Positions 19,600 through 41,872 of a stretch of 64,000 nucleotides of DNA are shown here, piece after piece (the first letter of the stretch is position 1; each line of letters opens with the position of its first letter). Location: assembly GCF_001421015.2 (NCBI RefSeq), contig NZ_CP013023.1:4395501-4459500 (forward strand), given 5' to 3'. The position numbers and the translations under genes were made by a program. The notes beneath the pieces are model-generated. The model did not search any database. It saw nothing but the letters and a program-made list of their open reading frames with translations, and was not told the DNA's origin. The DNA comes from Paenibacillus bovis. GTDB lineage: Bacteria > Bacillota > Bacilli > Paenibacillales > Paenibacillaceae.

Positions 19600-19662
19600 C
19601 TTCCTCTATGCGATTGACTCGTCTATCGACCAACGTTTCGATTCCTGAGATCTTTTCACCTT

Positions 19663-24754: not shown

Positions 24755-24884
24755 CCTTATCTATAAGAATTGCGTATCTCTCAGGTAAGATTTCTTCATT
24801 CTCGCCACAGTATAAAATGCTCTGTCTAGACCTAGGTATGCCGCATGAATAGTATGCTTTAATCATGTTTATATACAGTTTTCA

Positions 24885-25298: not shown

Positions 25299-25303
25299 AT
25301 GTA

Positions 25304-26265: not shown

Positions 26266-26595
26266 TCATAGGGTATGTTGTCCCTTTTTTTCTTTTCCAG
26301 ATAATTGTTGTAAATTCATTACTGCTACATTGACTGATGTTTCAATATATCCTTCGATCTGCATAAAATGAAAGACATTCAGCGGTTCATTGATTACTTG
26401 CTTTTCATATTCCATATCCCCTAACACATGGGGAACAAATTCTAATACATCACTGGACTTGACTTCATCCAGATCAATAACTTTATTCGTTTTATTATTG
26501 ATTTCTTCCCTCATTTGATTAGTAAAATCATAGTGTTCTAGCAGCTTTCCATTCAGTAATTGAAAATCACTCCATGATAATTTGTTTATCTGCAT
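26266..26595 (-). CDS. hypothetical protein
   Basis: A 109-residue acidic protein (LLNGKLLEHYDFTNQMREEI; DVLEFVPHVLGDMEYEKQ; IEGYIETSVNVAVMNL). It begins 18 bp upstream of the LprI-like gene and may be co-transcribed. No family is recognised. Confidence 0.6.
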   Translation of the reverse strand: MQINKLSWSDFQLLNGKLLEHYDFTNQMREEINNKTNKVIDLDEVKSSDVLEFVPHVLGDMEYEKQVINEPLNVFHFMQIEGYIETSVNVAVMNLQQLSGKEKKGQHTL

Positions 26596-28265: not shown

Positions 28266-29204
28266 TTATCGCAAAAGTTCTGTAATCGCTCTTAATGGTT
28301 TGAAGGTATCGCTGTATGTATCACTTGTTAATGAGACAACTATATTTCGGGAATGATCTACGTAAATGTACTGACCGCCCATTCCCATAGCGAAATAAAA
28401 AGGCTGCTCCACTGAGCTACCGGCTACCCACCAATGATGGCCGTAATAACCGATACCATCATATGTTAAATACTTGGGTTGGGTTGAAGTGGATATCCAC
28501 TCCTCACTCAGTAATTGCCTTTTCCCACAGCGCCCGTTATTTAAATAGAAGCTGCCAAATTTATGCATATCTTGTATCGACATATGTATCCCAAAACCAC
28601 CAATATTAATTCCTTGGGGATCTGCATGCCATATGAAATCTTTGATCTTCAAACTGGAGAAGAGAACCTTTATTGCGAAATCTTTTGCACTCATGCCTGA
28701 CACCTGTTGAAGTATGGCTAATAACAGATGGCTGCAGCCCGAATTATAGTTCATTCTTTCACCAGGTTCGGCGTTTAATGGGCGCTCTAATATATAATCA
28801 ACCCAGTTAGGACTATGTATCATGGCTGGCCAGCCGTTCCATTCTTCCAGCTCTGGCCAATCAAAACCTGCACTCATACTCAATAAGTGTTCAATGGTAA
28901 TGCTTTGTTTGCGGATGTCTTGATCCTGCTGAAGCGACGGGAAGTAATGAACAATCGGCGTATGAATATCCGAAATCAATCCCTGCTCTACAGCCATTCC
29001 AATCAAGCATGAAGTAATACTCTTGGTGCATGAGTTGATTTTGTGGAGCTTGTCTTTTGATTTATTATTTCTAAAATAGTGAAGCACAATGTCTGTCCCC
29101 ACACTTATCAAACAACTTTCAACTTTTTCTTTTTTCAAATAATGAACAAATGATTTAACTTTTTCATCGCTTATTTGAGACTGATGCATAGATTCAATGA
29201 TCAT
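28266..29204 (-). CDS. serine hydrolase (class C beta-lactamase family)
   Basis: A 312-residue penicillin-binding-protein-like hydrolase. The nucleophile motif SxxK is in NSCTKSITSCLIG (near residue 82), and YxN is seen as MNYNSGCSHLL. The KTG-equivalent box is replaced by GMGGQYIYVD, with HHWW nearby. There is no signal peptide, suggesting cytosolic esterase activity rather than beta-lactam resistance. TAGGAGC precedes ATG. Confidence 0.8.
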   Translation of the reverse strand: MIIESMHQSQISDEKVKSFVHYLKKEKVESCLISVGTDIVLHYFRNNKSKDKLHKINSCTKSITSCLIGMAVEQGLISDIHTPIVHYFPSLQQDQDIRKQSITIEHLLSMSAGFDWPELEEWNGWPAMIHSPNWVDYILERPLNAEPGERMNYNSGCSHLLLAILQQVSGMSAKDFAIKVLFSSLKIKDFIWHADPQGINIGGFGIHMSIQDMHKFGSFYLNNGRCGKRQLLSEEWISTSTQPKYLTYDGIGYYGHHWWVAGSSVEQPFYFAMGMGGQYIYVDHSRNIVVSLTSDTYSDTFKPLRAITELLR

Positions 29205-29283
29205 TGGTTTGCTCCTATTTGTTATTCTGGAGATCGTTTGAACGGTTTACAATTTATATCGACGAATAGAATGATGCATACAA

Positions 29284-30264
29284 TCAAATAATCACATTCC
29301 TGAAATACTCCATCTTGCTATCAATAAATCCATCATCGAAGTCCGCTCCACCTATCAACTCTGATTCACTAAAACATAAGCCAAAGAGCCACAACTGTCG
29401 GAGTACAACGAATATAGAGACTGCTTTAACATCATTTCTACTTAGATCTCTTACTTGTCTGTAACCGTTTAGAAATGCTTGCCATAGTCTTTCTACTTCA
29501 TCCTTATCATGGCCACTGTGAATTTCTCTTGCCAATCTGAACTCTGCGATATCATAAGCTCTCCACCCATAACCACAAATATCGAAATCATAATGTGCTA
29601 ATTGCCCATCGTCTGTAAAGGCTGCATTGGTGTTGCCATGCAAGTCTCCATGACAAATCCCCCAATCCAAACCTTCTTCGATCTTGTTCGCCAACTGTTC
29701 CTTTAATTCTGAGATCCGTTTATGAATAAAATAGTACTCCTCCAGACGATGCCCCATATGTAATTTGATGATATCAAGCGGTCTATCTATTAGATATTCC
29801 AAATCCAGATTATCTCTCGCATGCTCACTTCTAAAATGCTCAGTAACTTTATGAATATGAGCAACGGATTTTCCAAATAAATAGCTATCTTCTACGGTAT
29901 GAATCGGCTTTTCATGACCTTCTGCAAAACTAAACATGACCCCATGTTTTACACCTTCAGTGACCAAAAAATCGTTTATGAAGGTGCCATCTTTTCGAGC
30001 GATCGGTATGGATACGTTTACATTATTCTCATTGACATAATTCAATACATCCAGTTCAAAAGCAATCTCGGATCGATTTCTTCGATCCGCACGATACACT
30101 CTAAAGATATATTTTCCTGAACCCGTTTCTACAATATAGGTATCGTTCATGCCTCTAAGGAAGTATTTTAAATGGATAGTTTCTTGAAAGTCATAATAGT
30201 CTTTGATATGCGCTAGTAAAGCTTGCCTGGACAAGAGCGAGTAGGTAACAGGAAATAAACTCAA
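29284..30264 (-). CDS. APH-type phosphotransferase
   Basis: A 326-residue aminoglycoside/choline-kinase-fold protein. It starts at TTG 30264 with GAGGATG upstream. The catalytic loop HGDLHGNTNAAF (about 215-226), the metal-binding DFDICGYGWRAYD and the N-lobe strand YIFRVYRADRRNRSE are all present. It resembles the homoserine-kinase/spectinomycin-type phosphotransferases widespread in Paenibacillus. Substrate not assignable. It lies next to the distal end of the cassette array but has no attC-like site of its own. Confidence 0.85.
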   Translation of the reverse strand: MSLFPVTYSLLSRQALLAHIKDYYDFQETIHLKYFLRGMNDTYIVETGSGKYIFRVYRADRRNRSEIAFELDVLNYVNENNVNVSIPIARKDGTFINDFLVTEGVKHGVMFSFAEGHEKPIHTVEDSYLFGKSVAHIHKVTEHFRSEHARDNLDLEYLIDRPLDIIKLHMGHRLEEYYFIHKRISELKEQLANKIEEGLDWGICHGDLHGNTNAAFTDDGQLAHYDFDICGYGWRAYDIAEFRLAREIHSGHDKDEVERLWQAFLNGYRQVRDLSRNDVKAVSIFVVLRQLWLFGLCFSESELIGGADFDDGFIDSKMEYFRNVII

Positions 30265-30446
30265 ATCTACACCATCCTCTTCACTTCTAATTCACCTATA
30301 AATATACCATATGTTGGTAAGGAGTTGTTTTTATTTACTTGTAAATGATTCAATGTAAGCAATCAATTTGTGCCATGACTTGCCCGTTAGTCACTAGCTT
30401 CCAGGCATTAGATCATCAGCGGAATTTTATGCTGTGAGCTGATTTC

Positions 30447-30542
30447 CTATGATGTTCCTGTATTCATGACTCGATGCATGTCGATCTTAACACGAACGCC
30501 AGAATAAGACCTATACTTGCAGCATGATTATTATGTTAGGTA
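30447..30542 (-). repeat. attC-like site 1 (distal end of array)
   Basis: GTTCCTGTATTCATGA on the right pairs with GCATGATTATTATGTTA on the left. The right end (TATGATG) has lost the TAAC core and the inner arms are altered, so it is degenerate. It marks the last recognisable cassette boundary. Confidence 0.65.
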
Positions 30543-30554
30543 ATATATGACCTT

Positions 30555-31388
30555 TCAATGAATAACCTTCATAATCTTCTTTGATATATGATTATTCTCA
30601 TCTGGATATCCTAAAGAAGCATTTATTAGCCTGCATCCTTCATTAAAGTAATCTTCTCTTCGATGAACATGCCCAAAACACCAGATTTTTTGATTTAAAT
30701 TAGATAATAAATCTCTGCCATTGAAATAATAAAAGCTATTGCTAACATCATTAATATGATCCAATGGAACTTTAGACCAATCGGGCGAAATATGAGTGAT
30801 GATCACATCTGAACGGTCAAGCACCTTCTTAAGTTTTGTTAATTCTTCTGTATACATGGCTTCAACTAATCGAGGTAAGCCTTCGATTAAGACGGAATCA
30901 TTAGAAATTAATTTCCAACTTTCATATACTTTATTAGCGTCTATATTCAACTGATTAATTCCATATTGAAAGTCGTACCACATTCCAGTCCCACCGAAAG
31001 AAACTCCACTAATTTCAACAGTATCCCCATCCAGAAAAAATACTCCCGGTATTTGCTCGGCAATTATTTTCATTTCTTGGAATCTGCGCATTGAGTTATA
31101 TCTGTATTTATTTTTTATTGAATTACTAACTAAGTAGTAGTCATGATTCCCTGCAACTAGAAGAATATGCATATAATATTCTTTAAGCTTTTCAAGAAAA
31201 ATAAAATTCTGTTTGTTATAGTGGCCTAGATCACCGGCGATCACTAATACTTCCGAAGGCTCATTAGGAAGAATTGAATTCACAAACTTCTCTACGATTT
31301 GATTATGTTTTGTGTGATTACTGGAATATTTCACCCAAAAATCTAAATGAATATCAGATATGAGATCAAACTGTATTATGGTCTTCAC
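30555..31388 (-). CDS. cassette 13: metallophosphoesterase
   Basis: A 277-residue calcineurin-like phosphoesterase with every metal motif: SDIHLD (DxH, residue 11), AGDLGHYN, LVAGNHDYY (GNHD), IITHISPDWS, and the final GHVHRR. It starts at GTG 31388, 21 bp from attC-like site 2, and stops next to site 1, so it fills one cassette. It may cleave nucleic acid, nucleotide or phosphoester substrates. Phosphoesterases of this size also occur in defence and effector loci, but no specific role can be given. Confidence 0.85.
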   Translation of the reverse strand: MKTIIQFDLISDIHLDFWVKYSSNHTKHNQIVEKFVNSILPNEPSEVLVIAGDLGHYNKQNFIFLEKLKEYYMHILLVAGNHDYYLVSNSIKNKYRYNSMRRFQEMKIIAEQIPGVFFLDGDTVEISGVSFGGTGMWYDFQYGINQLNIDANKVYESWKLISNDSVLIEGLPRLVEAMYTEELTKLKKVLDRSDVIITHISPDWSKVPLDHINDVSNSFYYFNGRDLLSNLNQKIWCFGHVHRREDYFNEGCRLINASLGYPDENNHISKKIMKVIH

Positions 31389-31408
31389 CCCCGCTCTTAT
31401 TATACTTC

Positions 31409-31483
31409 ATCTAAAGTTCCTATATTCACGATCCAACGCATATCGGGTATCCGGCGTATGCCCGTAGCGTGAATATTGTGTGA
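31409..31483 (-). repeat. attC-like site 2
   Basis: The inner arms TATTCACG and CGTGAATATT are intact. The outer ends are worn: CTAAAG instead of CTAACG on the right and GTGTGAG instead of TGTTAT on the left. One internal mini-hairpin, TCCGGCGTATGCCCG, is visible. Confidence 0.75.
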
Positions 31484-31506
31484 GGCAACACATAACTACG
31501 TTACTT

Positions 31507-32031
31507 TCAAAGTTTTTTTAACATATGTATATCATTAGGTTCTAAATCAAATAATTCTTGATCTATTTCATCCGTCAATTCACTTCCACAGTTTTGGTGG
31601 AAATTCACAGCTGACTCTGTCTCTGTTGAGGAAATATACAAGAATGTAGCACCTCTGTTTTTGGCTTATTTGCTTAACTCATTCATTAATTGTTTTCCTA
31701 TTCCTTTCCTTCTAAAACTTCTTGTTACGTACATGAGATCTATTTGCAGCCGATCTTTATTCTTTCCTCTTAATTTGTGACCCAAAACATCAAAACCGAT
31801 AAGGCAGTCGTTCTCAAATGCTCCATAAGCTATCCCACCCGCTGTTATTTCAATCCTGAACCTTTCTAACAATTGATCTAACTCCCTAGTATCCCATGTT
31901 GGGAATTCATGATCGGTGCTAACTTCCTTAAGTCCTGCATCACCGTTCTCATAGATTAGATTAATTTTTTCTGATCGATCAATTTCTTTGATTTTCTCTG
32001 CCTCTTCGAGCTTCATTTCTCTAATAATCAT
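31507..32031 (-). pseudogene. cassette 12: GNAT acetyltransferase with in-frame TAA
   Basis: The frame starts at 32031 after GAGGAG with MIIREMKLEEAEKIKEIDR. GNAT motif A (LMYVTRSFRRKGIGKQLMNEL) is present, then TAA occurs at 31666-31668. The same frame continues for 52 codons (AKNRGATFLYISSTETESAV, NFHQNCGSEL) and completes the GNAT fold, with its second stop at 31507. A single base change would restore a normal 174-residue protein. The truncated product lacks motif B, so it is likely inactive. Confidence 0.85.
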
Positions 32032-32072
32032 CTATATCCAGCTCCTCATCTAATTATCTCTGGTAAGTTTCG

Positions 32073-32100
32073 CCTCACATTTCTGTATTCACGAACCCAA
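32073..32100 (-). repeat. attC-like half site 3
   Basis: Only the right half, CATTTCTGTATTCACGAACCC, is recognisable. The partner arm is missing in the 150 bp to the left, which instead contain a CTTAACGCCCG element that reads GTTAAGC on the minus strand, a perfect GTTRRRY core. It is a rearranged or hybrid boundary between cassettes 11 and 12. No gene is seen in 32101-32259. Confidence 0.55.
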
Positions 32101-32259
32101 GAGGCTTAACGCCCGTCAGGGTCGGTAGCTCCGCTTTTTAGCAACGCAGGATTGTCTGCTGACTTCACTCCCTCGAAAGCCTATTGCAAACTATGAGATG
32201 CCAGGATCGTCTCGCGAGTGCATTTTCAGCTAATGCCAATATCTCCTTGAATAAACAAA

Positions 32260-32622
32260 TTACGATCTTTCAATTGAAAAGGTTTGAATATATTCTTCTA
32301 TAGGCATTATTAGACCATGGTCATCATCAATATAAATGCCTCTAACAAAGTTATCTTGACTTAATACTTTCTTCATTAGATCCTTAGACTTATAAATCAT
32401 CATTATAAAATGGGGATTCTGGAAAGGAATCTTTTGTAATTCTTCGTGTTCATAATCATTTATAATGCTCTGATCAAAATCATAAATAATATGTTCTTGT
32501 CCAAAATCAACGACGAATCTATTATCTTCAATGCTTGAAACTGTATTATTACCAAAGTGTTGAATTCCATGTATCAAATTGATGTTGAAAGAGTCATCAC
32601 CAATTAGGATAATCCATTGCAT
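32260..32622 (-). CDS. cassette 11: small hypothetical protein
   Basis: A 120-residue protein. The ATG at 32622 (MQWIILIGDDSFN) is preferred because AAGGAAG is 8 nt upstream. It is an acidic alpha/beta protein with strand-rich segments (NRFVVDFGQEHIIYDFDQS; NPHFIMMIYKSKDLMKK; GIYIDDDHGLIMP). It is immunity-like in size and charge, but no family is recognised. It lies between attC-like sites 3 and 4. Confidence 0.7.
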   Translation of the reverse strand: MQWIILIGDDSFNINLIHGIQHFGNNTVSSIEDNRFVVDFGQEHIIYDFDQSIINDYEHEELQKIPFQNPHFIMMIYKSKDLMKKVLSQDNFVRGIYIDDDHGLIMPIEEYIQTFSIERS

Positions 32623-32700
32623 TAGATACACTTCCTTATTACAGGATATTAGTCGTTGGATATACTTAGGGTCTTAACTAACTGTACTTGCACCAGTCTC

Positions 32701-32796
32701 ACCTAACGTTTCTGTATTCACAACCCGACGTATTTCGAGGGTCCGGCGAATTCAGGTCCAAAGGCGTATGCCCGCAGCGTGAATATTAAGTTAGAT
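32701..32796 (-). repeat. attC-like site 4 (best match to the classical cores)
   Basis: On the minus strand it begins ATCTAAC and ends GTTAGGT, exact matches to RYYYAAC and GTTRRRY. Inner arms are AATATTCACG and GTGAATACAG. Two mini-hairpins built on CCGACGTATTTCGAGG and GGCGTATGCCC lie between. This copy is the strongest evidence that the repeats are attC sites. Confidence 0.85.
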
Positions 32797-32821
32797 GATG
32801 AGTATTTCTTCTACATCTCAC

Positions 32822-33361
32822 TCATAAAGATGTATTTTTCTCCTTAATAACAAACTGTCTAAAGGAGTCTTTAAATATCTCGTATACTACCTGCATTTCT
32901 TTAATTTCGTCAAGGAATTTACTTTGTATCTCCCTTTTTTGTTTATGTTCAAGCTCTATATTGAATTCAGAATCTTCGTACTTATTCAATAGATCATAGA
33001 AGTATTCACATGGTTCTTTCACTGCTTCATAATTGTCGGCATATTCTCCAGAAACTGATAGAAAACTAGCCCACGATATCTCTCTTCTATCATATTTCAA
33101 ATATAAGCACGCAATGTATTGGTTAAAAAGTTTACTGCTATAACGATCTACAAATGGGTCTGAATTAATATATTTATTAACTATTTCAATAGCGCTTCCT
33201 TGAAAACATATATCTGCTAATTCAATAATCCAATAGGGCGGTTTTGTATATTCATCAATGATCTCATCACAAAACAACTTGAAGTGCTTATACCAGATCA
33301 ATCGGCTCTCAAGCATAATACTTAATTTACAAGCAAATTCTTTATTTAATTCTACGTTCAT
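32822..33361 (-). CDS. cassette 10: hypothetical protein
   Basis: A 179-residue protein preceded by AGGAGG. It is helical with many aromatic residues (ESRLIWYKHFKLFCDEII; PPYWIIELADICFQG; WASFLSVSGEYADNYEAV) and ends in a charged helix. No family is recognised; its make-up resembles bacterial immunity proteins. It fills the unit between sites 4 and 5. Confidence 0.75.
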   Translation of the reverse strand: MNVELNKEFACKLSIMLESRLIWYKHFKLFCDEIIDEYTKPPYWIIELADICFQGSAIEIVNKYINSDPFVDRYSSKLFNQYIACLYLKYDRREISWASFLSVSGEYADNYEAVKEPCEYFYDLLNKYEDSEFNIELEHKQKREIQSKFLDEIKEMQVVYEIFKDSFRQFVIKEKNTSL

Positions 33362-33389
33362 CGAAAACCTCCTGTTTTAAAGTCTTTGA

Positions 33390-33484
33390 ACTAACGTTCC
33401 TCTATTCACGAATCTAGACACGTCTAGTGTCTGGCAAATACCAAATAAAGAATGAATGTCTGTAGTGTGAATACTATGTTATCT
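33390..33484 (-). repeat. attC-like site 5
   Basis: The right end CTAACGTTCC with the arm TATTCACGAA pairs with GTGTGAATA and ATGTTATCT on the left. The central part carries the mini-hairpin TCTAGACACGTCTAGTG. The left inner arm has one change (GTGTGAATA). Confidence 0.8.
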
Positions 33485-33523
33485 AATGAATGCGTCCTCT
33501 CCGATTATTCTTGCTCCTTATGC

Positions 33524-33859
33524 TTATGTATTTAAATAGGTTTTCCAATCGTTTTTCTTTAAACGGATATAGCTTTCAAATTCTATCTTCGCAATGCCTC
33601 TTAATTGGTTATAAATCTCGTTATCAAATCGATCATTGTTTACTAAGATCATGGCTAAGGATTCCCCGCAACTTGCTTTAATCATATCATCTGTCGAATC
33701 ATGATTGGAAATTGTCAGTAAAGCCTTTACTACATTTTTATGACTGTACTCACTAAGATCCATGGCTGCATCATCTTGTTCAGCATCTGAAGCCCTTTCA
33801 TCTAGTAATATTTCAACAAGCTTTTCCCACTGTTCTATAGGATTCCCCTCCACATTCAT
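33524..33859 (-). CDS. cassette 9: small hypothetical protein
   Basis: A 111-residue helical acidic protein (VEILLDERASDAEQDDAAMDL; KNVVKALLTISNHD; KASCGESLAMILVNND). It looks like two HEAT-like helical hairpins. The ATG at 33859 lacks a ribosome site. A strong GGAGGGG lies inside the frame, 8 nt before ATA (IEQWEKLV), which may be a mutated or unusual start. No family recognised. Confidence 0.6.
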   Translation of the reverse strand: MNVEGNPIEQWEKLVEILLDERASDAEQDDAAMDLSEYSHKNVVKALLTISNHDSTDDMIKASCGESLAMILVNNDRFDNEIYNQLRGIAKIEFESYIRLKKNDWKTYLNT

Positions 33860-33903
33860 GTCTCAGTTTGATCAGGTTAATGGAAAGCTTTAAGCATCTT
33901 TCA

Positions 33904-33979
33904 AATAATATTCCTGTATTTACGAGTCAATGTATATCAGGCTAGGATGAATGCTCGCAGCGTGAATATTAAGTTAAGT
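33904..33979 (-). repeat. attC-like site 6 (short)
   Basis: TATTCCTGTATTTACGAG pairs with GCGTGAATATTAAGTTAAGT. The central part is short and has only one mini-hairpin. The left core reads ACTTAAC on the minus strand, a match to RYYYAAC; the right core has drifted to ATTATTT. Confidence 0.75.
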
Positions 33980-33993
33980 GATGTTCATCCGAA

Positions 33994-34524
33994 TTACCTA
34001 TCAAATACGTCTTGAAAATATTGATCCATTAATCCTTTGTTTTTAAATCTAGTTTTAATATATCCTTTAGCTCTTAAACAAACATTTCTATAACCTTCAC
34101 TTCTCATATTGTCCGCAAGATAAACCATTTCAATTATTGGATCACTGGGTTCCACCTCATATGCTTTTGATAGCATGTTTTTCCCGATACTTTTCCAATG
34201 CTCATAGTCTCCGAAATGATTAGGAAACAAAGTGATCATATAACCAAAAATCAATAAAAACTGCATCTCTGCCGAAAAATTACGTATCCCTTCTTCTGTA
34301 ACTTCGGTTAATGTCAATTCAATCATTTCATAATCGGTATCATTAAGCCCTTGAGTAATAAACGTATTTCCAGATTCGACGCTCAAATACCAGGATATAA
34401 AACCTAAATTCAAGCATACACTCAAATCACGATTCCCTTTACCCCACTCCCTTTTCATTGACAAAAAGGCTTCTTGATATTTTTTTGCAGTCTCGAATTT
34501 ATTTACTTCATCTCCATTAATCAT
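33994..34524 (-). CDS. cassette 8: helical-repeat hypothetical protein
   Basis: A 176-residue protein with AAAGGAAG before ATG. It consists of amphipathic helices with a TPR-like rhythm (AKKYQEAFLSMKREWGKGN; MQFLLIFGYMITLFPNHFGD; GKNMLSKAYEVEPSDPIIEM; GYIKTRFKNKGLMDQYF). No family is named. TPR-like single proteins of this size are common as immunity or regulatory factors. It lies between sites 6 and 7. Confidence 0.75.
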   Translation of the reverse strand: MINGDEVNKFETAKKYQEAFLSMKREWGKGNRDLSVCLNLGFISWYLSVESGNTFITQGLNDTDYEMIELTLTEVTEEGIRNFSAEMQFLLIFGYMITLFPNHFGDYEHWKSIGKNMLSKAYEVEPSDPIIEMVYLADNMRSEGYRNVCLRAKGYIKTRFKNKGLMDQYFQDVFDR

Positions 34525-34559
34525 CCTGCAGCTTCCTTTCGATTTCCCCTCGGAATTTT

Positions 34560-34655
34560 ACTTGACGTTCCTCAATTCACGACTCCGCACCTTCTGAGTG
34601 TCCGGCAAATGCTGGATGCAGGACGAATGTCCGCAACTTGAATATTATGTTATTT
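34560..34655 (-). repeat. attC-like site 7
   Basis: ACTTGACGTTCCTCAATTCACG pairs with ACTTGAATATTATGTTATTT. Two mini-hairpins lie between (GTCCGGCAAATGCTGGA and GGACGAATGTCC). The right core is GTCAAGT on the minus strand, one base from GTTRRRY. Confidence 0.8.
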
Positions 34656-35073
34656 GATGTATTGGGCTTCTTAAATTGACTTGCAAATTGCTTCTGTATT
34701 TACTTATTTGCTCTTCTAATATGTTTCTCGCTTCTTCATAGGTTCTAATCACTTCATCCAATTCGTTCTTTAATTCTTTATGTTCGTTCCAATATTCTTT
34801 CTCTACTTGTAGTACCGAACAAAATAAATCTCCAACGTACATATTTCCTGATCCTAAGGGGTTCTGTATTAATTTTTCTAAGGCTAAAGGCAAAATCAAA
34901 TTTAGATTTATTTGTTGTCCGATTAAAAGTCTTAAATCTTCATTATTCAATTCGCAAAGAGGTTTCTTCCTTAATTGATGTACTTGGATTACTAATGAGG
35001 AAGCAAAATTAAGTTCATCCCAATATTCGCCTTCAAGCTCTTCAAGGGTTTTGGCCAAGTCGACTTGCTGCAT
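34645..35073 (-). CDS. cassette 7: CdiI-like immunity protein
   Basis: A 142-residue protein resembling the immunity proteins annotated with contact-dependent growth inhibition systems. Shared features are LEELEGEYWDELNFASSLV, VHQLRKKPLCELNNEDLRL, the LIGQQINLNLILPLALEKL helix, and the DLFCSVL strand. AGAAGGTGA precedes ATG. Such proteins neutralise CDI or polymorphic toxin C-termini in the cytoplasm. No toxin gene is adjacent, so it would be an orphan immunity gene. The family match is from memory of the pattern. Confidence 0.65.
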   Translation of the reverse strand: MQQVDLAKTLEELEGEYWDELNFASSLVIQVHQLRKKPLCELNNEDLRLLIGQQINLNLILPLALEKLIQNPLGSGNMYVGDLFCSVLQVEKEYWNEHKELKNELDEVIRTYEEARNILEEQISKYRSNLQVNLRSPIHQIT

Positions 35074-35110
35074 AGGTTCACCTTCTTAAATAAATGGTTT
35101 CCAGTATGTC

Positions 35111-35224
35111 ATATAACCTTCTTATATTCACGACCCAGCGAATGCTGGGTGTTCGATGCTTGTCGAACCAAGGCTTATGCCGGGCCAAAGACAAATGTCC
35201 GCAGCGTGAATATTATATTATGTG
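35111..35224 (-). repeat. attC-like site 8 (longest)
   Basis: ATATAACCTTCTTATATTCACG on the right is paired with GCGTGAATATTATATTATGTG on the left. Four mini-hairpins lie between (ACCCAGCGAATGCTGGGT, GTTCGATGCTTGTCGAAC, GGCTTATGCC, GACAAATGTC), one more than in most copies. This suggests that the centre grows by adding hairpins. Confidence 0.85.
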
Positions 35225-35247
35225 ATACGTCACACTTCTTGAATTCT

Positions 35248-35772
35248 CTACAATGCATTCTCTATCTTCTTTATGAATTCTTTAGTCATTACTCTGTATT
35301 CAGCAACCAAATCTATAAGTAGTGGATCTTCTAAAACATCTGGACTTATAAAATCTCTTATCCATTCATCATAAACAAGCGCAAGATCATATGCTTTATC
35401 CAGATGAGGAACAGGTTCCAAATAGTTCAGATCCCTATGTGCAGAATAACTATTACGAAATTTAGTTACCTTCTGCCAATATTCTTTCCATGCAGTTGAA
35501 TTCATTTTTGCTTTGTTAATAATTTCATTTCTATCATCATTATTTAATCCAATGTGTTTCCAATGTGTTGGATTACTCGTATCACTGCCAAAAACCATAC
35601 ACCAATAATTTAAGGATTGAAGATAATGGGCATTGATTGTGTAGTCAACAAACGATTGATATGTACCTGCCTTGCTACTTAATGAATGAAGTTCTTTATA
35701 GCTGACGTAGTAATAAAGAAAGTCCCTTATAACTGGCATTTGTCTTGAAAAAACATCGATGTTATAAGACAT
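35248..35772 (-). CDS. cassette 6: HEPN-like (AbiU2-type) protein
   Basis: The start at 35772 (MSYNIDVF) is chosen because GAGGAGAGG precedes it; the longer frame to 35808 enters the attC-like site. A protein of about 174 residues, all helical, with an RNSYSAH segment near residue 120. It fits the R-x4-6-H motif of HEPN ribonucleases, within TKFRNSYSAHRDLNYL. AbiU2-like HEPN proteins are phage-resistance or toxin components. Activity is inferred from motif and fold only. Confidence 0.65.
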   Translation of the reverse strand: MSYNIDVFSRQMPVIRDFLYYYVSYKELHSLSSKAGTYQSFVDYTINAHYLQSLNYWCMVFGSDTSNPTHWKHIGLNNDDRNEIINKAKMNSTAWKEYWQKVTKFRNSYSAHRDLNYLEPVPHLDKAYDLALVYDEWIRDFISPDVLEDPLLIDLVAEYRVMTKEFIKKIENAL

Positions 35773-35806
35773 TCTGAACCTCTCCTCATTTGTATTGGGG
35801 AATTTC

Positions 35807-35880
35807 ACATAACATAATATTCACGATCCGGCGTATACTGGACCCAGGACGAATGTCCGCAGCGTGAATATTTTGTTATC
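35807..35880 (-). repeat. attC-like site 9 (short, most symmetrical)
   Basis: ACATAACATAATATTCACG and GCGTGAATATTTTGTTATC are almost exact inverted repeats, without the asymmetric spacer (GTTCCTG) of other copies. The centre has GATCCGGCGTATACTGGA and GGACGAATGTCC. The symmetric form may affect which strand or end could recombine. Confidence 0.85.
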
Positions 35881-35946
35881 GGATGTCAATGCCATCTTCG
35901 AATAAACCTTGACGATATTCTTCTGATGTATGATTCAGAGTATCAT

Positions 35947-36897
35947 TCAAAAATATCCAGGAAGCGATGCTAAATCCATTAATCTCCGGATTTGCTCATC
36001 ATTTTGCCTTCTAAGAACCATTTGTGAAACTTTTAAAATAAATTGCTTTAGGCTCTTAAATGCTTCATCACTATACTTATCATCGCCCTGTTGTATTCTG
36101 TTTAACACAGCCATATTCCAAGCTAGATATTTTCCGGGAATTAAAATATCAGAAATGTCCTCCCATCCTGCATCAGCATACCCTATAGCACGGTACTTCC
36201 TTTTTAAGTCTTAGTCGCATTTCCTCTTACAGCACCAGAGAAAAGCAACATAAATATTAGTTTTAGGGTCTTCTTTAAAAACGATTATCCCATCTCCTTG
36301 AGGTAACAAATCCTTACCACAATTTTGACAGTATAAGGGCTCATACTCGGAGAAAATATTAGCCGGCTTTGGATGATCTTCTTCTCATTTTGAAAATGAA
36401 ACTGGAAAATACCTTTTAGCAATAGTTTTTCCCTTCGGATTTTCGAGAATCATTTTTTCAATAATTTCACGATCAAACACTTTTACATCGAAATGTCGTT
36501 TCAGACCTTCCAAATTTCTACCCAGTGGAGAACTAATTATCGTTGAATAAAAACCTATGAAACCCTGCGCACCGAAGGTTTCAACCCTTCCTTTAATATC
36601 TATTTCATCATTACTTTGAACCGCACTTCCAGAATGAGCTTTGTGTTTGCAACTCACGAGCCAATCAATTTCAGTATCACCAATAATCCCTTCCCTCTTC
36701 TCGCTTATTATTAAATCTCTCCCACCATCTTGACCTCTATCAGGGCCATCTTTAATTTCGAAGCCCAACATCATAAAAAAGTCTCGAGCAAACATTTCAA
36801 AAGTATCTTGTAATCCATTAGTAAGATTGGCCTGTGCAATCTCTTTGAAATCTAAAATTGGCATAATTTCATCCCTATCATTATTATTTAATAGCAT
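35947..36897 (-). pseudogene. cassette 5: Mrr-like restriction endonuclease with two in-frame stops
   Basis: One frame of 317 codons is broken by TGA at 36385-36387 and TAA at 36211-36213. The first part holds the PD-(D/E)xK nuclease core: GPDRGQDGGRDLII (catalytic Asp) and WLVSCKHKAHSGSAVQ (the xxK lysine). It continues to FDREIIEKMILENPKG. After TGA the same frame gives a cysteine-bearing domain (YCQNCGKDLLPQGDGIIVF; WCCKRKCD). After TAA it gives a helical tail ending RLMDLASLPGYF. ATG 36897 or 36864 (MPILDF) could start it. All three parts look coding, so these are recent nonsense changes or errors. Stop read-through cannot be excluded but is less likely. Confidence 0.8.
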
Positions 36898-36903
36898 TGA
36901 TTT

Positions 36904-36999
36904 CCGATAATGTTCCTGTATTCACGACCCGACGCATGTCGGGTGTCTGGCGAATGCCGGACCCAGGACGTATGCCCGCATCGTGAATATTATGTTATC
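36904..36999 (-). repeat. attC-like site 10
   Basis: GATAATGTTCCTGTATTCACG pairs with TCGTGAATATTATGTTATC. Central mini-hairpins are CCCGACGCATGTCGGG, TCTGGCGAATGCCGGA and GGACGTATGCCC. It is a typical full-length copy. Confidence 0.9.
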
Positions 37000-37013
37000 A
37001 GAAGTAATATGCT

Positions 37014-37565
37014 CTATAGATTATTTAATTCAGTAGCTATGTCCTCACTTATTAATCTATAGCCAATAAGAGCTACCCATAAAGAAAATAAAACTTGCTT
37101 TAAACTCTTCAATAAAGAATAATCATTCAAACCATTTCTATAAATGTCTACGCTTCTATCAAATCCTATTGCAAAAGTGTCTACAAATTTTTCAAATGTC
37201 TCCTCATCAAATTGAAAATCTAGCTCGTGAGCATATTTATTCCTTATCCTATTCAAAAAATTAATAGGCGCTTTTAAGTCGAGAGGAATCGCACCAATTG
37301 CTAATAAAATTTTTAGTGCGACATTAAAAGCTAATTTATCCCCTAGCTCTTGAGGATGTGTTAGCTTAGAATTTAATATTTCTGCCATTTCAAATTCAAT
37401 ATATAAATGCGATCTTAAAATAATTTGAAAATAATTTTCTCCTTCCGTTTCCAACATGAACTTCTCATATTGTTCTTCAAACTTATTAGCTATTACTTCT
37501 AGCTGATCTCCATATCTTTCATCAAGCTTTTTAGCTCTGATCATTAGTTCTTCTCTTCTATCCAT
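37014..37565 (-). CDS. cassette 4: HEPN-like helical protein
   Basis: A 183-residue all-helical protein with GAGGAGG before ATG. The RIRNKYAHEL segment (near residue 108) is the R-x4-H motif seen in HEPN and DUF4145/MAE-type proteins. The preceding region (YIEFEMAEILNSKL; LAFNVALKILLAIG) fits their helical bundle. HEPN proteins are commonly RNases in toxin-antitoxin and antiphage systems. Here it would be a one-gene unit without a visible antitoxin. Confidence 0.65.
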   Translation of the reverse strand: MDRREELMIRAKKLDERYGDQLEVIANKFEEQYEKFMLETEGENYFQIILRSHLYIEFEMAEILNSKLTHPQELGDKLAFNVALKILLAIGAIPLDLKAPINFLNRIRNKYAHELDFQFDEETFEKFVDTFAIGFDRSVDIYRNGLNDYSLLKSLKQVLFSLWVALIGYRLISEDIATELNNL

Positions 37566-37643
37566 TCTTTCCTCCTCATTTACTTTTAGAGTTTTATACT
37601 GCTGTTGATAATTTCTTAAAGTTCAATTAGTCCTGTATGATTT

Positions 37644-37740
37644 CTCATAACGTTGCTGTATTCACTACTCGACGTATGTCGAGTATCCGGCGTATGCCGG
37701 ATCAAGAGCGTATGTCTGCAGCATGAATATTATGTTATAC
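37644..37740 (-). repeat. attC-like site 11
   Basis: CTCATAACGTTGCTGTATTCAC pairs with GCATGAATATTATGTTATAC. Central hairpins are CTCGACGTATGTCGAG, TCCGGCGTATGCCGGA and GCGTATGTCTGC. A full-length copy. Confidence 0.9.
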
Positions 37741-37797
37741 GATGGAATCTCTTCTTTGAATGACTGTCATATTTTCTTCTTGAAATTTATTTTCATG

Positions 37798-39201
37798 TTA
37801 TTTAATATCTTTGTCTACAGAATTGTGCAATTTCAATCGCTCTTGAATACTACTTTCGACATATTTAAAAAATTCCTTATTGATTTCCCTTATTCTCTTC
37901 ATCAAGCTTTCTCTATCATTGTATTTTCTGTAAAAGTGTTTCCAAACACTTCTATCACCGTAATCGTATACTTCCCATCCCGTTTCATGAAATGTAATGA
38001 ATTTATAAAATACAGTAACTTTATACCGTGAAATAAGAAATACTACGTTGCATTGGTAAGGAGCTAATGCCTGATGAATTGGATTCAATTTGACCTTTAA
38101 AGAATCGAAAGTAGTGTTTAGTCTTGTAGAAATTCCTACAAATTCGATTTTGGGATTTATAAACGGCAGCGTAATACCATAGACATTATTATTATTAATC
38201 TTTTCTGTCTCTATTTCCAGAAAATAATCGTTAGAATTTTTATCGACCCATTTAGCAATAGCATCTATATCTAAAATATCTACATAATTAGATACCTCTA
38301 TTACTTCTAAAGAAAATATTTCTTTGAAAAATTCAATATTTATTAATTCATTAAATTCTTCTTTTATTTCACTTAAAATTTGATCTATCTCTTCCTTAGA
38401 TACATATGATTGGGATAATCTTTTAATCGATTCAACCAGTGAAACTTCTTCTTTCTCCACATCCACAATTTGTTTTTCATATTTTGTTATGTCTATATTC
38501 TTAATGGTTTCTGTAATACTACAAAACACATCACTCATGGCCCCCTGAGTAACAAAGTAAGGAGTTTGCTTACTTGACTGCGCGAACTTATCTTTTACAT
38601 ACTCTATAATGCTTGAATAGCTAATTTCATTTCCTCTGTAGGTTAGAATAGCTTCGGCAAAACTCTTTGTAAAATCACTAATTGTGTTCACATAAGAGAA
38701 CTGATCGCTATGAGACGAAAACATAAAATACAAATTATTAATTGCTTTTTTTTGCTCGAAAATTTGAGATACTTCTAAATCTCCTTTGATATAAGGTATT
38801 CCAGAGTTACATGCGTCTACTACTTTTACAGTTAATTTTGGATTAATATTTCTTATTTGTTGATCAATAAAATTATTCGAGAGTGTTGTGGTATTATAAT
38901 GCTGACTCGAATAATCTGTTAAAGCAAATTTAAGGTCTTCTTCATCCATATCATAAGCCCCATGTCCAGTATAATAAAAGAAAAGTTCTCCAATTTCTTC
39001 TCCTTTTATTCTAGAAAAAAAGGTTGTTAAATTTTCTTTTACACTTAAAGAATCAGTATTCTCATGAATCTGTAGGATCTCTGTATATTTATTTGTAGAC
39101 CTTAGGATCTCTGCTATAAGTTTATAATCATTCTCACAACCTGGTAACGACGTAATATTGTTGTACTCTGACACGGCTATTACTATAGCTAGGTTTTTCA
39201 T
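37798..39201 (-). CDS. cassette 3: caspase-like (C14) peptidase
   Basis: A 467-residue protein starting after GAGGAGG. The N-terminal half is a caspase/metacaspase-like peptidase. It has the opening LAIVIAVSEYNNITSLPGC, the catalytic His in FFYYTGHGAYD (His80), and the catalytic Cys in VVDACNSG (Cys131), followed by the MFSSHSDQFSYV segment. The C-terminal half (about 230-467) is a charged, helical region of unknown kind with a short beta domain. Caspase-like proteases are effectors in several bacterial defence and cell-death systems; a target or sensor is not visible here. It is the longest cassette and the best candidate effector. Confidence 0.85.
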   Translation of the reverse strand: MKNLAIVIAVSEYNNITSLPGCENDYKLIAEILRSTNKYTEILQIHENTDSLSVKENLTTFFSRIKGEEIGELFFYYTGHGAYDMDEEDLKFALTDYSSQHYNTTTLSNNFIDQQIRNINPKLTVKVVDACNSGIPYIKGDLEVSQIFEQKKAINNLYFMFSSHSDQFSYVNTISDFTKSFAEAILTYRGNEISYSSIIEYVKDKFAQSSKQTPYFVTQGAMSDVFCSITETIKNIDITKYEKQIVDVEKEEVSLVESIKRLSQSYVSKEEIDQILSEIKEEFNELINIEFFKEIFSLEVIEVSNYVDILDIDAIAKWVDKNSNDYFLEIETEKINNNNVYGITLPFINPKIEFVGISTRLNTTFDSLKVKLNPIHQALAPYQCNVVFLISRYKVTVFYKFITFHETGWEVYDYGDRSVWKHFYRKYNDRESLMKRIREINKEFFKYVESSIQERLKLHNSVDKDIK

Positions 39202-39235
39202 TTTAAAATCCTCCTCTATTTAAGTTTGATTCTGT

Positions 39236-39332
39236 CGTATAACGTTCCTATATTCACGACCGGACGTATGTCGGGTATCCAGCGAATGCCGGATTAAGGA
39301 CGTATGTCCGTAGCGTGAATATTATGTTATGT
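39236..39332 (-). repeat. attC-like site 12
   Basis: GTATAACGTTCCTATATTCACG pairs with GCGTGAATATTATGTTATG. Central hairpins are CCGGACGTATGTCGGG, TCCAGCGAATGCCGGA and GGACGTATGTCC. A full-length copy. Confidence 0.9.
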
Positions 39333-39343
39333 GATGGTTAATT

Positions 39344-40066
39344 TCAGTCATTAAAAACACTTTCAATCACTTCAATAATTACCTTGTCTAACCAAGTCGT
39401 AGCTTGTTTATAATCCTCCGCTACTCTCCTCAATAGAACTGATGGATGTGATTTTAAATTTATATCAAAATTAGACAGTGTGGTTTCATCAGGTGAATTA
39501 CGATGGGTCATCTTATTTCTATAAATATTTACTTCCTTATGATTCCCAATCCATCTTTTATCATTTTCATATTTACCATCAGAAATTTCATTAAAATAGT
39601 CCACTAACCTCTGGGCACTTTCTTTAATATTCATATCATCTGATTTTGAAAGATTTTCAAAAAACTTATAGTAATTAATTTTATTGTTTTTTATTTCACA
39701 CTTATATAATAAATTATATATCTGTGCCAATAGATCCCATAAAGTCGCTATTCTAAATATTCCATTTTCTATATAATAATATGCTTTAACTTCATCTTTC
39801 GAACTAGGTTTAAACAAATCAAATTTATCGTAGATATCTGTGTTATAAGTCAAATCAATTGCCTTATCCAATGAGTAATTTATCTTGTCACACAAATTCA
39901 AAAAAGTTGCTATTAGCGCTTTATACTCAAAAATAATGCTATAATGGTTGTCTCCTGTCATGCCAAAAATAACTTTATTTTCTCCGAACGTTATACCAAG
40001 CTCATATTTATCAGGATTAATTTCGACTAGCTGACTTTTTAAATACTTAATTTCATTCTCTCTCAT
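39344..40066 (-). CDS. cassette 2: HEPN-like (Cthe_2314-type) protein
   Basis: The start at 40066 (MRENEIKYLKSQL) is taken because GGAGG lies 8 nt upstream; a further in-frame ATG at 40093 exists. About 240 residues, very AT-rich, almost entirely helical. Near residue 195 it carries YRNKMTHRNSP, the R-x4-H motif of Cthe_2314-like HEPN proteins. YYIENGIFRIATLWDLLAQIYN in two pieces fits the same family. Likely an RNase or a regulator in conflict systems. No partner is adjacent. Confidence 0.65.
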   Translation of the reverse strand: MRENEIKYLKSQLVEINPDKYELGITFGENKVIFGMTGDNHYSIIFEYKALIATFLNLCDKINYSLDKAIDLTYNTDIYDKFDLFKPSSKDEVKAYYYIENGIFRIATLWDLLAQIYNLLYKCEIKNNKINYYKFFENLSKSDDMNIKESAQRLVDYFNEISDGKYENDKRWIGNHKEVNIYRNKMTHRNSPDETTLSNFDINLKSHPSVLLRRVAEDYKQATTWLDKVIIEVIESVFND

Positions 40067-40107
40067 TGAATATTCCTCCAACTCTTTAGTCATTGAAATT
40101 AACTGTC

Positions 40108-40203
40108 ACATAACATTCCTGTATTCACGATCCGACGACTGTCGGGTATCCGGCGAATGCCGAATCAAAGGCGTATGCCCGCAGCGTAAATATTATGTTA
40201 TAC
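40108..40203 (-). repeat. attC-like site 13
   Basis: ACATAACATTCCTGTATTCACG pairs with GCGTAAATATTATGTTATAC. Central hairpins are CCGACGACTGTCGGG, TCCGGCGAATGCCGA and GGCGTATGCCC. The left inner arm has one mismatch (GTAAATA). It is the first site downstream of cassette 1. Confidence 0.9.
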
Positions 40204-40290
40204 AGAGTTAATATCTTATTTGAACTACCATTTACTTTTAAATTTTTAATACACAATTAAATTTACGTAATATTCTCTTTGAGCAATGAC

Positions 40291-41067
40291 TTATTGAGTA
40301 TCTTTCCTTCTTACAAGAAACTCTATCATTTGCTTCATCACTTCAACTCTTATTGATTCATCACTCGTGTCTTCAACGAGTTTAAAACACAATAATATAT
40401 TTTGAACATCTAAAAGGCTGTCATGATAATCTTTCAATTGAAGAACGGTTCTATTGTAAAGATAAAACATCAAAGCAGAGATAACTTCTACCAATACTCC
40501 TGAACCAGTAACTAAGTAAGATATATTACCCAAGTCATCAAATAAATAGGAAAAAATCAAACCTCCTGAAATTAAAAGGACCCCAAAAATGCTCATAATC
40601 AGAGAAGAATTAAAAGATTTCCTATTACTATTTTTTACTAGATCATAATAATCTTCTAAATTCCGAAGATTGATTGCTACCAAATCATCAAAATATCTTG
40701 TTGCTTTTTGGGCTCCTGCCATTTTATCTTTTTCTTCTAACTGTTTCTCTAGCATCCTAATTTCAGCCTCATAATTACTTTGCTTTGTACTAGAAAAGCT
40801 AGCAGCAAACATGAGTCCTGAAAATACAGCTAGTGAACTGCTTAGATATACATTCATAGGTATTAACTTGAAAATTCCTAAACAACTTACTACTGTTAAC
40901 ACCGCAAAAAATACTCTCAATCCTACTGTTAAATTTCTATCGTTGGATTTTTCAATAGTTAATTTTATTAACCTAGCCTCCAAAAAGTTAGCTGCCACCG
41001 GATTGTTGACCGTAATAGTGGCTCCAATTGAAGCATTACTATTTTCCTCTTGATTATTTGAACTCAC
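40291..41067 (-). CDS. cassette 1: membrane protein, TRADD-N-associated/SLATT-like
   Basis: A 258-residue protein with two pairs of membrane segments: about 47-90 (GLRVFFAVLTVVSCLGIF; LAVFSGLMFAASF) and 150-205 (SLIMSIFGVLLISGGLIF; VTGSGVLVEVISALMFYLY). A coiled coil lies between them (YEAEIRMLEKQLEEKDKM). The RNLEDYYDLVKNSNRKSF stretch before the second pair resembles membrane domains found with TRADD-N or SLATT proteins, which act as pore-forming effectors in bacterial conflict systems. This family reading is tentative. It is the first cassette after the attI-like site. Confidence 0.6.
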   Translation of the reverse strand: MSSNNQEENSNASIGATITVNNPVAANFLEARLIKLTIEKSNDRNLTVGLRVFFAVLTVVSCLGIFKLIPMNVYLSSSLAVFSGLMFAASFSSTKQSNYEAEIRMLEKQLEEKDKMAGAQKATRYFDDLVAINLRNLEDYYDLVKNSNRKSFNSSLIMSIFGVLLISGGLIFSYLFDDLGNISYLVTGSGVLVEVISALMFYLYNRTVLQLKDYHDSLLDVQNILLCFKLVEDTSDESIRVEVMKQMIEFLVRRKDTQ

Positions 41068-41091
41068 TTTATTCTCCTTTATAGTAATTTT

Positions 41092-41150
41092 GTGTAACGT
41101 AATATTTACGAACTTCTGTAATAACTCTCATATCGTTATATTCACGAACT
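41092..41150 (-). other. attI-like site
   Basis: TGTAACGTAATATTTACGAAC at 41093-41113 copies the right-hand half of the cassette sites (compare ATAACATAATATTCACG in site 9). A second half, CGTTATATTCACGAAC, lies at 41134-41149. No matching left halves follow. A simple site with core GTTACAC on the minus strand, directly upstream of cassette 1 and next to the recombinase, is where an attI would be expected. The assignment is inference from position and sequence. Confidence 0.5.
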
Positions 41151-41208
41151 CCATAAATCCCCAACCTATCGCAGTATTCTCGAATCTCTTACACAGTCTT
41201 TAGAAGCC

Positions 41209-41872
41209 TTACATCCGATCAAGCGGACTTTGAATATTCCCAATATTACGCTTGCTCACATGCGTGTAACGTTCGTTGTTCGTATACTCTGATGTTCCAG
41301 CAGCTCCTGAATATAGCGAAGATCTGTTCCATTTTCTAGCAAATGGGTAGCAAAAGAATGTCTTAACGAGTGGATACTCACCTGATTGCGAATTCCGCCT
41401 TGAATAAGCGCCTTCTCAAATACTTTCTGTGCAGATCATTCGGTGAGATGACGTCCTGTTCGCTGCCCCGGAAATAGCCAGACGATTGGCTTTTCCAGTT
41501 CTATGTATTGCTTTAAGACAGAAGCCGCTACTTCAGATAATAGTGTCTGACGATCTTTTCTACTCTTCCCCTGACGGAAACGAATCACATTTCGTTCATG
41601 ATCTCAATCTTCTATACGAATATGCACAACCTCGCTTACTCGGAGACCTGCCGTATACGTTAGATACAGAATAGCCTGATGTTTGATATTAACGACACTT
41701 TTTAACAAACGCACTACTTCTTCCAGCAATAGCACACCTGGCAGCTTACTTTCCTTTTGGGATGAACATCCGCTCACTTTTGAGCATCATATTGTTCTAG
41801 TGGTACTCCGATTCGTTGATTATTTAAATAAGTCAGATAAATATTTATTATAGCCTCCTCATATTATCATCT
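41209..41872 (-). pseudogene. decayed tyrosine recombinase at the array head
   Basis: Minus-strand fragments spell a XerC/D-type catalytic domain. They are LPGVLLLEEVVRLLKSV, then the box I arginine region LYLTYTAGLRVSEVV, RQGKSRKDRQTLL, PIVWLFPGQRTGRHLTE, the box [27 protein letters not shown], and [19 protein letters not shown]. Two in-frame TGA codons follow RIED and HLTE. A one-base loss separates the Tyr-containing end, and the N-terminal core-binding domain is shifted or missing. The spacing from WLFPG to SIHSLRH is short, so the segment that marks classical IntI is not present. The SPLD end is shared with IntI and related recombinases. It reads the same way as the cassettes. Confidence 0.85.

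Follow-up and report, generated by a model that had tools for sequence, protein, structure and literature searches.

A 64-kb stretch of the genome of Paenibacillus bovis (hereafter the window, G000:C1:4395501-4459500 of a 5.5-Mb host genome in 2 contigs) carries, at 30445-41067, thirteen single genes on the minus strand, each alternating with one of thirteen imperfect palindromes. From its sequence we read this array, with a probability of roughly 0.9, as a cassette platform, sedentary in the chromosome, that operates in the manner of an integron with a different recombinase. It is not a canonical integron: the linked recombinase family has no IntI insertion, the L stems of the sites have no extrahelical bases, and the R boxes mostly depart from the classical consensus. 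As two defining features were tested and found missing, the system falls outside the integron family as now defined, and an integron-like platform of its own class is the most economical reading. A first-pass annotation of the window, made from the sequence alone, had described the genes and palindromes as an integron-like array; it did not report the attI-like site or the remnant of a recombinase, nor the second array and the spread through the family that are described below.

The array and its repeats

The window repeats are palindromic, mostly 60-82% alike and of a single orientation. A covariance model (R1) was built from 11 sites, 7 of the window and 4 of a second array in the same genome; with 7/11 training sites taken from the window, it is not independent of it. 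Searched with filters off, R1 matched 12/13 window repeats at E<=1.9e-8, and, opposite-strand shadows aside, the next best match (18901-18999) scored 24.3 bits. One repeat, third from the left at about 32071-32200, is irregular, recognisable in its left half only and not matched by R1. The strict alternation of thirteen co-oriented genes with thirteen palindromes first reported for the window is therefore confirmed, for twelve sites by the model. An Rfam search of the window returned no known RNA family.

The best copy reads ACCTAAC/GTTAGAT and fits RYYYAAC/GTTRRRY. Across the sites of the bacterial family, the conserved core is TAAC/GTTA, with TAAC exact in 247/276 and GTTA exact in 256/276; after leaving out of the end analyses the 4/276 sites that had no clear ends, the strict heptamers were found in 72/272 (GTTRRRY) and 69/272 (RYYYAAC). 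Of the two descriptions of the ends given in the first-pass annotation, TAAC/GTTA stands as the core, and the longer consensus holds for the best copy and, strictly, for a minority of the family's sites.

Palindromes of this mutual likeness could also be plain repeats of the repetitive extragenic palindromic (REP) or bcr type, between which genes are swapped by homologous recombination with no site-specific enzyme. The genome-wide scatter expected of such repeats was not seen: allowing <=2 mismatches, all 17/17 genome matches to the right-arm consensus GCGTGAATATTATGTTA lie in the window array or the second array. With 3 mismatches there were 24 matches, mostly scattered, and a reversed control pattern gave 9 in all. 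Besides being confined, as close copies, to two arrays and to one orientation in the window, the repeats adjoin an attI-like site and a recombinase, to which we now turn.

The attI-like site, the recombinase remnant and the second array

The attI-like site of the window (41095-41190, minus strand) comprises three direct boxes, GAGATTCGAGAATA, GGAGTTCGTGAATA and GAAGTTCGTAAATA (41188-41175, 41152-41139 and 41116-41103), with a 36-bp period, and ends in GTTA (41098-41095). Beside it lies a broken tyrosine recombinase gene (about 41209-41850, minus strand). Its C-terminus faces the array, stops interrupt the frame, and a large part of the N-terminal half is lost. This pseudogene corresponds to G000:C1:4436768-4437265 (E 2.1e-89, 2 TGA inside), the sole genome match to the family alignment at E<=1e-70, and the window array is probably immobile today unless another enzyme helps.

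The second array of the genome, at G000:C1:286-292 kb (locus L009, about 6150-12560), is oriented like the window array and also has an attI-like end; no HxLRH-type recombinase motif was found in the 19 kb around it. Because only a broken recombinase was found in the genome, both arrays are probably frozen.

In relatives, 2-4 boxes of the GAAGTTCGTGAATA kind, read by eye, follow the recombinase stop, with GTTA next and then a first cassette specific to each genome. In five Paenibacillus-type loci, which we assign to the P. polymyxa group, identity is 90-96% over the 260 bp that end with GTTA, and 10/10 pairwise alignments (the single best for each pair) stop 0-18 bp past GTTA. An attI with direct repeats and a GTT core beside the recombinase gene, as in integrons, is thus present, the boxes again being read by eye.

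This layout of attI, attC and cassettes is identical to that of integrons, and the second array has no recombinase motif within its 19 kb. Both observations would also suit the remnant of a canonical integron, a cluster of attC sites lacking an integron integrase (CALIN). An ordinary IntI, since lost or acting from elsewhere, would then have moved the cassettes. The structure of the sites and the recombinase itself, described below, bear on this alternative.

Cassette turnover and complementary cassette ends

The orthologous locus in the relative G003, with flanks 86-94% identical, has 4/13 window cassettes in common (5, 9, 12 and 13, counted from the attI end); cassettes 12 and 13 stand in the same order at its distal end, and the four attI-nearest window cassettes are absent. 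The other G003 array contains a fifth, as an 86% copy of cassette 8. The second array has 3/7 cassettes in common with G003 and 2/7 with P. wulumuqiensis, one in part; one or two relatives were compared per array. Alignments of the orthologous loci break at GTTA junctions. The comparison of orthologous loci for cassette gain or loss, proposed as a check in the first-pass annotation, hence upholds its gene-cassette reading, since loci with conserved flanks differ in their cassettes and the breaks fall at those junctions.

Homologous cassettes were defined as pairs from different genomes with >=80% identity over >=70% of both, which gave 65 pairs among 222 distinct cassettes; as one cassette recurs in many genomes, these pairs are correlated. 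The 3' end of the alignment lay <=10 bp from the junction in 31 pairs, <=20 bp in 52 and <=50 bp in 63, and the alignment continued into the next cassette in 2/65. At the 5' side it overran the junction by 70-130 bp in 61/65 pairs; this is the length taken up by the preceding attC, whose similarity accounts for the overrun. Identities reach 97% between genomes (one genome per species). Gain, loss and exchange of cassettes at the R' core, as known from integrons, are all seen. A cassette about 840 bp long turns up in many of the genus's genomes, with identities of 81-93% (L103:8832-9670, L098:5245-6084, L104:15956-16795 and others) and is probably the aspartyl-protease/PDC-M08B type met in 7/104 of the cargo proteins below.

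Movement of cassettes as circles predicts that the ends of a given cassette, once joined, complete a palindrome. The three variable bases outside TAAC/GTTA were complementary between the ends of the same cassette at 536/618 positions (206 cassettes), against 273/618 for the two ends of a linear site; when partners were shuffled within loci the count was 297±13, with a maximum of 349 in 10,000 (homology between loci uncorrected). All three bases pair in 154/206 cassettes vs 19/206 linear sites, and the own-end and linear fractions are 0.86 vs 0.42 in the Saccharibacillus clade, 0.81 vs 0.51 in Paenibacillus and 0.97 vs 0.52 in Cohnella. Extended to six bases, the own end pairs better in 167 of 216 cassettes, equally in 31 and worse in 18; for the window only (n=10) the figures are 8, 1 and 1. 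As own-cassette ends are complementary and the ends of linear sites mostly are not, only closure of the cassette completes the palindrome, and a closed circle would, on these sequences, restore the full site.

Such complementarity is predicted by the integron mechanism, with its circular cassettes, and not by plain repeats or homologous exchange. The latter should leave breaks anywhere in the repeat of about 90 nt, yet pairing outside GTTA is found between the ends of one cassette and, for the most part, not within the linear site. Together with the confinement of the repeats, this makes plain REP/bcr-type repeats a most improbable account, the least credible of those weighed here, and the cassette platform remains the preferred one.

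Structure of the attC-like sites

The structure drawn for the 11 aligned sites pairs 86.5% of cells vs 27-39% in slid versions, a control that favours the drawn structure because this was drawn from the same sequences. In the pair-count control, shuffles reached the drawn structure in 88/500 cases for pairs changed on both sides and in 346/500 for further pair types, and in 1/500 for cells changed on both sides and 4/500 for covariation; 2/5 of the shuffle measures gave no clear excess.

Palindrome lengths step by about 18 nt (72-73, 90-91 and 108, with one of 119 in L009), and the tip of the site is a modular row of mini-hairpins of about 18 nt. On the strand opposite to the genes, perfect hairpins with a 5-bp stem and a 4-nt loop have a loop of the sequence GNAT in 229/304 cases, and ATNC in 0. 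The same strand has the lower folding energy in 200/264 sites, the other strand in 60.

In integrons the IntI insertion contacts extrahelical bases of attC. Such bases are missing here: among 169 distinct 99-nt sites, the L stem pairs perfectly over 8 bp in 112, over 7 in 44 and over 6 in 13, and allowing one bulge improves only 2/169. The probable fold of the bottom strand is, we propose, a stem of TAAC/GTTA plus TATTCACG/CGTGAATA bearing the hairpins of about 18 nt with their GNAT loops, and this folded strand would probably be the form recombined.

The recombinase family

The recombinases of relatives have PF00589 and a SAM-like domain, and their catalytic R, K, HxxR, H and Y columns are invariant in 17 relatives. 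They carry a conserved N-terminal extension of about 100 residues (..RSVPGRKWxPDEKVWTIPY..; residues 1-100 in L068-L078) with no Pfam match. All four recombinases scored fell below the cut-off of the IntI model TIGR02249 (203-217 bits against 265) and of NF040815 (210-219 bits against 220); the NCBI name of the latter, 'site-specific tyrosine recombinase/integron integrase', already provides a naming link to integrons.

The distance from the K motif to HxLRH is 67-69 residues in 29/31 rows of the new family and its kin (2 unrecognised) and 108-110 in 6/7 IntI rows (1 unrecognised). This spacing, and the gap in the alignment against 2a3v, show that the IntI insertion of about 41 residues is lacking. 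According to PMC8138268, that insertion is not fully conserved in its subgroup, yet is essential for integron function.

The 42-row tree gathers the IntI rows in a single clade (100/99), separate from the new group (95/97). The interior of the new group is not resolved, and several long branches in the tree make placements unsure (L167 and L168 were dropped from the tree, L015 had no frame, and L090 was dropped from alignment A7). IntI and the new group stand together against three distant Xer-type rows of the host genome, so that the two systems may, on this tree, have a common origin. In a PDB fold search with the predicted structure (mean pLDDT 80.9, pTM 0.48, 17 sequences in the alignment), the 50 matches listed out of 314 were all recombinases, the best being VchIntIA bound to attC (2a3v, TM 0.40/0.48), with XerA close next. 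A defined fold sought for the N-terminal extension did not emerge from those 50 matches. A canonical IntI elsewhere in the host genome was likewise rejected, as 0/8 TIGR02249 matches were above the cut-off.

XerA, XerC and XerD resemble the new family in the domain plan of the catalytic part and in their similar profile scores (210-219 bits for NF040815, just under its cut-off). The new family differs in its N-terminal extension and its linkage to cassette arrays, and in the tree it stands apart from the three host Xer-type rows, long branches being involved.

The fold match to VchIntIA, narrowly ahead of XerA, is the third point that a CALIN origin could claim, beside the shared layout and the solitary second array. 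Against it, the host genome has no TIGR02249 match above the cut-off, the 2/398 genomes of the phylum sample that exceed it are both from outside the bacterial family of the window, the linked recombinase lacks the IntI insertion and falls outside the IntI clade, and the L stems have no extrahelical base. The second array is CALIN-like in having sites and an attI-like end with no recombinase adjoining, and differs in that its sites are of the new type and that relatives have intact recombinases of the new type. We hold a canonical remnant to be very unlikely and retain the platform with its own recombinase; of the integron label applied in the first-pass annotation, the cassette behaviour is upheld and an ordinary integron is not, as the recombinase is not IntI, scores below the TIGR02249 cut-off and acts on sites, if it does, that have no extrahelical bases.

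Distribution in relatives

R1 sites were found in 15/16 genomes of the genus at E<=1e-3 (none in G006, one in G008, four in G009), and 4/21 genus loci scanned carry, at their attI end, an intact recombinase frame 384-392 residues long. A scan of named genomes with these four intact recombinases gave 30 loci, of which 27 (L068-L094) were taken as relatives: from Paenibacillus (wulumuqiensis, maysiensis, terrae, brasilensis, rigui, alkaliterrae, allorhizosphaerae, NFR01 and BJ-4), Saccharibacillus and Cohnella, three metagenome-assembled genomes (MAGs) of other Bacillota and one Chitinispirillaceae MAG. In 16/27 (Saccharibacillus, Paenibacillus and Cohnella) the recombinase is followed by R1 sites, and the sequence of most others ends <1 kb past the recombinase.

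In a sample of 245 genomes of the family, sites (E<=1e-5) occurred in 115 and the recombinase (E<=1e-70) in 84, each in 14/19 genera, and sites were present in 70/84 genomes with the recombinase vs 45/161 without it. Among 398 genomes of the phylum, the recombinase family was detected in 32 (E<=1e-75), and canonical IntI above its cut-off in 2, neither of them of the family of the window; the two thresholds are different measures.

Fifteen loci of other Bacillota families (L142-L156) were also inspected. Clear repeats lie behind the recombinase in 5 (L147, L148, L150, L152 and L155), the remaining 10 having few or none, several because the contig ends. Behind recombinases of the same family, L147, L148, L150 and L152 carry arrays of palindromes bounded by TAAC/GTTA, and their end complementarity, judged by eye, is mixed, at least one L152 site pairing better with its linear partner. 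The sites of these four loci are built differently and span roughly 120-190 nt, with L stems free of bulges in L150 and L152 (by eye). Repeats are also present behind the recombinase in L155 and L091.

A Gram-positive sedentary array had been called possibly undescribed, and this holds within the open-access literature (preprints and subscription papers apart), where integrons in Paenibacillus, Saccharibacillus or Cohnella were not found. Saccharibacillus together with integron gave 0 records there, and two Paenibacillus papers (PMC10343464, PMC6965355) mention the word integron once.

Cassette cargo

By longest open reading frame (ORF), 193 of the 222 cassettes are co-oriented, 22 opposite and 7 neither, with a median length of 810 bp; 10/222 have no ORF of 60 codons. 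Cargo was sampled as 104 cassette proteins, 14 from the host genome and 90 drawn at random from the remaining cassettes, and is described here by the commonest 25 of 61 families, single immunity genes possibly lying among the remainder. Aspartyl proteases are the most frequent (7), followed by GNAT (5), APH-like (3) and NUDIX (3) proteins; AbiTii, Fic, Mrr, HNH, DUF6210 and a few more occur twice each, a kinase is also included, and CdiI_3 was seen in 1/104. Among the 25 of 118 defence-family models listed, matches include AbiTii, Old, GajA, NucC and PD-T4-6, by similarity only.

These data bear on whether the array is a cluster of the rAID type known from Bacteroidales. According to PMC12247911, rAID clusters consist of short genes in one orientation, separated by conserved motifs and adjoined by a tyrosine recombinase, and their biogenesis is unclear. 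The arrays described here share this arrangement, and one window cassette is a CdiI_3 immunity gene. A Chryseobacterium plasmid (L163:5968-12675) likewise has a recombinase, 39% identical, followed by mostly co-oriented genes, and its three copies (90-98% alike) of a 209-nt repeat end near GTTA; judged from this sequence, the system may reach Bacteroidota. Orphan-immunity cargo, typical of rAID, was not what we found: the cargo is broad, from aspartyl proteases, GNAT, NUDIX and APH-like proteins to AbiTii, Mrr, a kinase and genes with no match. In addition, attI-like and attC-like sites and turnover are resolved here; rAID was compared by its published description. A rAID-type cluster in place of an integron-like platform seems to us only a slender chance, although the two overlap, since rAID may use the same machinery.

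Proposed mechanism and comparison with integrons

The platform shares with sedentary integrons (IntI, attI and attC, as in Vibrio and Treponema) a tyrosine recombinase gene, an adjoining attI-like site with direct repeats, co-oriented single genes each with a palindromic site, exchange at GTTA and a palindrome that is complete in the circular cassette. In Treponema the recombinase is also transcribed toward attI (PMC3607928). The differences are these: the new recombinase lacks the insertion of about 41 residues and has the N-terminal extension; the sites have no extrahelical L-stem bases and bear a tip of hairpins of about 18 nt, mostly with GNAT loops; the R boxes rarely fit the classical consensus; and no convincing LexA box is present.

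In relatives the tyrosine recombinase with its N-terminal extension is transcribed toward the attI-like site. We propose that this enzyme most likely inserts circular cassettes, each a gene with its palindromic site, at attI through strand exchange in the GTTA core; most likely it also excises and reorders cassettes. Closing a cassette into a circle would complete the palindrome. Catalysis by this recombinase, the single-strand step and the route of cassette expression are the parts of this model that we infer.

Several observations weigh against the model. The window's own recombinase is broken; 14/84 recombinase genomes have no R1 site, and 45/115 genomes with sites have no recombinase match. 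RNAalifold draws an outer helix with three hairpins and not the L stem, and single sites fold variably. The new group of the tree includes L164, L165 and L156, in which no array was seen (only short stretches were available for L164 and L165). A LexA box (GAAC-N4-GTTC, <=1 mismatch) was found upstream of the recombinase in 1/17 relatives, at -247, against a background of 0.10 per 270 bp, and none is convincing. Finally, the linear partner pairs better than the own end in 18/216 cassettes, 22/222 cassettes have their longer ORF on the opposite strand, and S. endophyticus (L070) has two inverted sites.

It is probable, with less assurance than for the cassette platform as such, that the system is a second class of integron, native to and widespread in Bacillota, whose recombinase never had or has lost the IntI insertion and whose attC-like sites do without extrahelical bases. 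If so, the strand would be chosen by other signals, such as the unequal spacer and the GNAT-capped modular hairpins, and the near-absence of integrons in Firmicutes would be an artefact of detection with IntI and attC models. Should the mechanism hold, a gene-capture system would have been overlooked in a whole phylum. Two features considered important for attC recognition, the insertion in the integrase and the extrahelical bases, could then be missing together. It may also bear on the origin of rAID clusters, which is stated as open in PMC12247911.

Features of the window

Read from the attI end, all cassette genes lie on the minus strand and all attC-like sites on the plus strand, which is the strand of the model and opposite to the genes. 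Cassette 1 (40291-41067) encodes a protein of 258 aa with a CyanoTRADDas_TM (TRADD-associated membrane) domain and is followed by a site at 40106-40204 (106 bits); cassette 2 (39344-40093, 249 aa) encodes a Cthe_2314-like HEPN protein (site at 39235-39333, 113 bits) and cassette 3 (37798-39201, 467 aa) a caspase-like peptidase C14 (37643-37741, 103 bits). Six of the genes have no Pfam match, the first being that of cassette 4 (37014-37565, 183 aa; site at 36903-37001, 109 bits). The gene of cassette 5 (36385-36897; whole cassette 35813-36910) has an Mrr-type nuclease domain and a G003 homologue at 90-91%, and its site is short (35805-35882, 61-62 bits).

Cassette 6 (35248-35808, 186 aa, no Pfam match) is followed by a long site, with about one additional 18-nt hairpin unit (35109-35224, 77 bits), and cassette 7 (34645-35073, 142 aa) encodes the CdiI_3 immunity protein (E 1.1e-25; site at 34558-34656, 91 bits). 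The next four genes again have no Pfam match: cassette 8 (33994-34524, 176 aa), the one copied in the other G003 array, with a short site that is one hairpin unit smaller (33901-33980, 44 bits); cassette 9 (33524-33859, 111 aa; 33387-33485, 75 bits); cassette 10 (32822-33361, 179 aa), whose site is the copy fitting RYYYAAC/GTTRRRY (32699-32797, 93 bits); and cassette 11 (32260-32631, 123 aa), followed by the irregular site at 32071-32200. Cassette 12 (31666-32031) encodes a GNAT acetyltransferase (short site, 31407-31487, 50-51 bits) and cassette 13 (30555-31388, 277 aa) a metallophosphoesterase, after which comes the last, degenerate site (30445-30542, 43 bits). As noted above, cassettes 9, 12 and 13 also occur in the orthologous G003 array.

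To the left of the array, six stretches of the window (13270-13526, 16283-16766, 19009-19600, 24163-24788, 24857-25316 and 26288-26483) are 73-80% identical to cassette genes of relatives. No site is recognisable at these stretches, the only R1 match in that part of the window with filters off being the weak one at 18901-18999 (24.3 bits), and they are either old cassettes that have lost their sites or a chromosomal source of cassettes. They include a chloramphenicol-phosphotransferase-like gene (24149-24754), a HIT-domain gene and a second stretch matching the same relative cassette as the 24149-24754 gene. Past the distal array end, at 28266-30264, lie a gene of the beta-lactamase family and an APH-like phosphotransferase gene, by family match only and with no resistance implied; the latter matches part of L104 (G001) with 83% identity.

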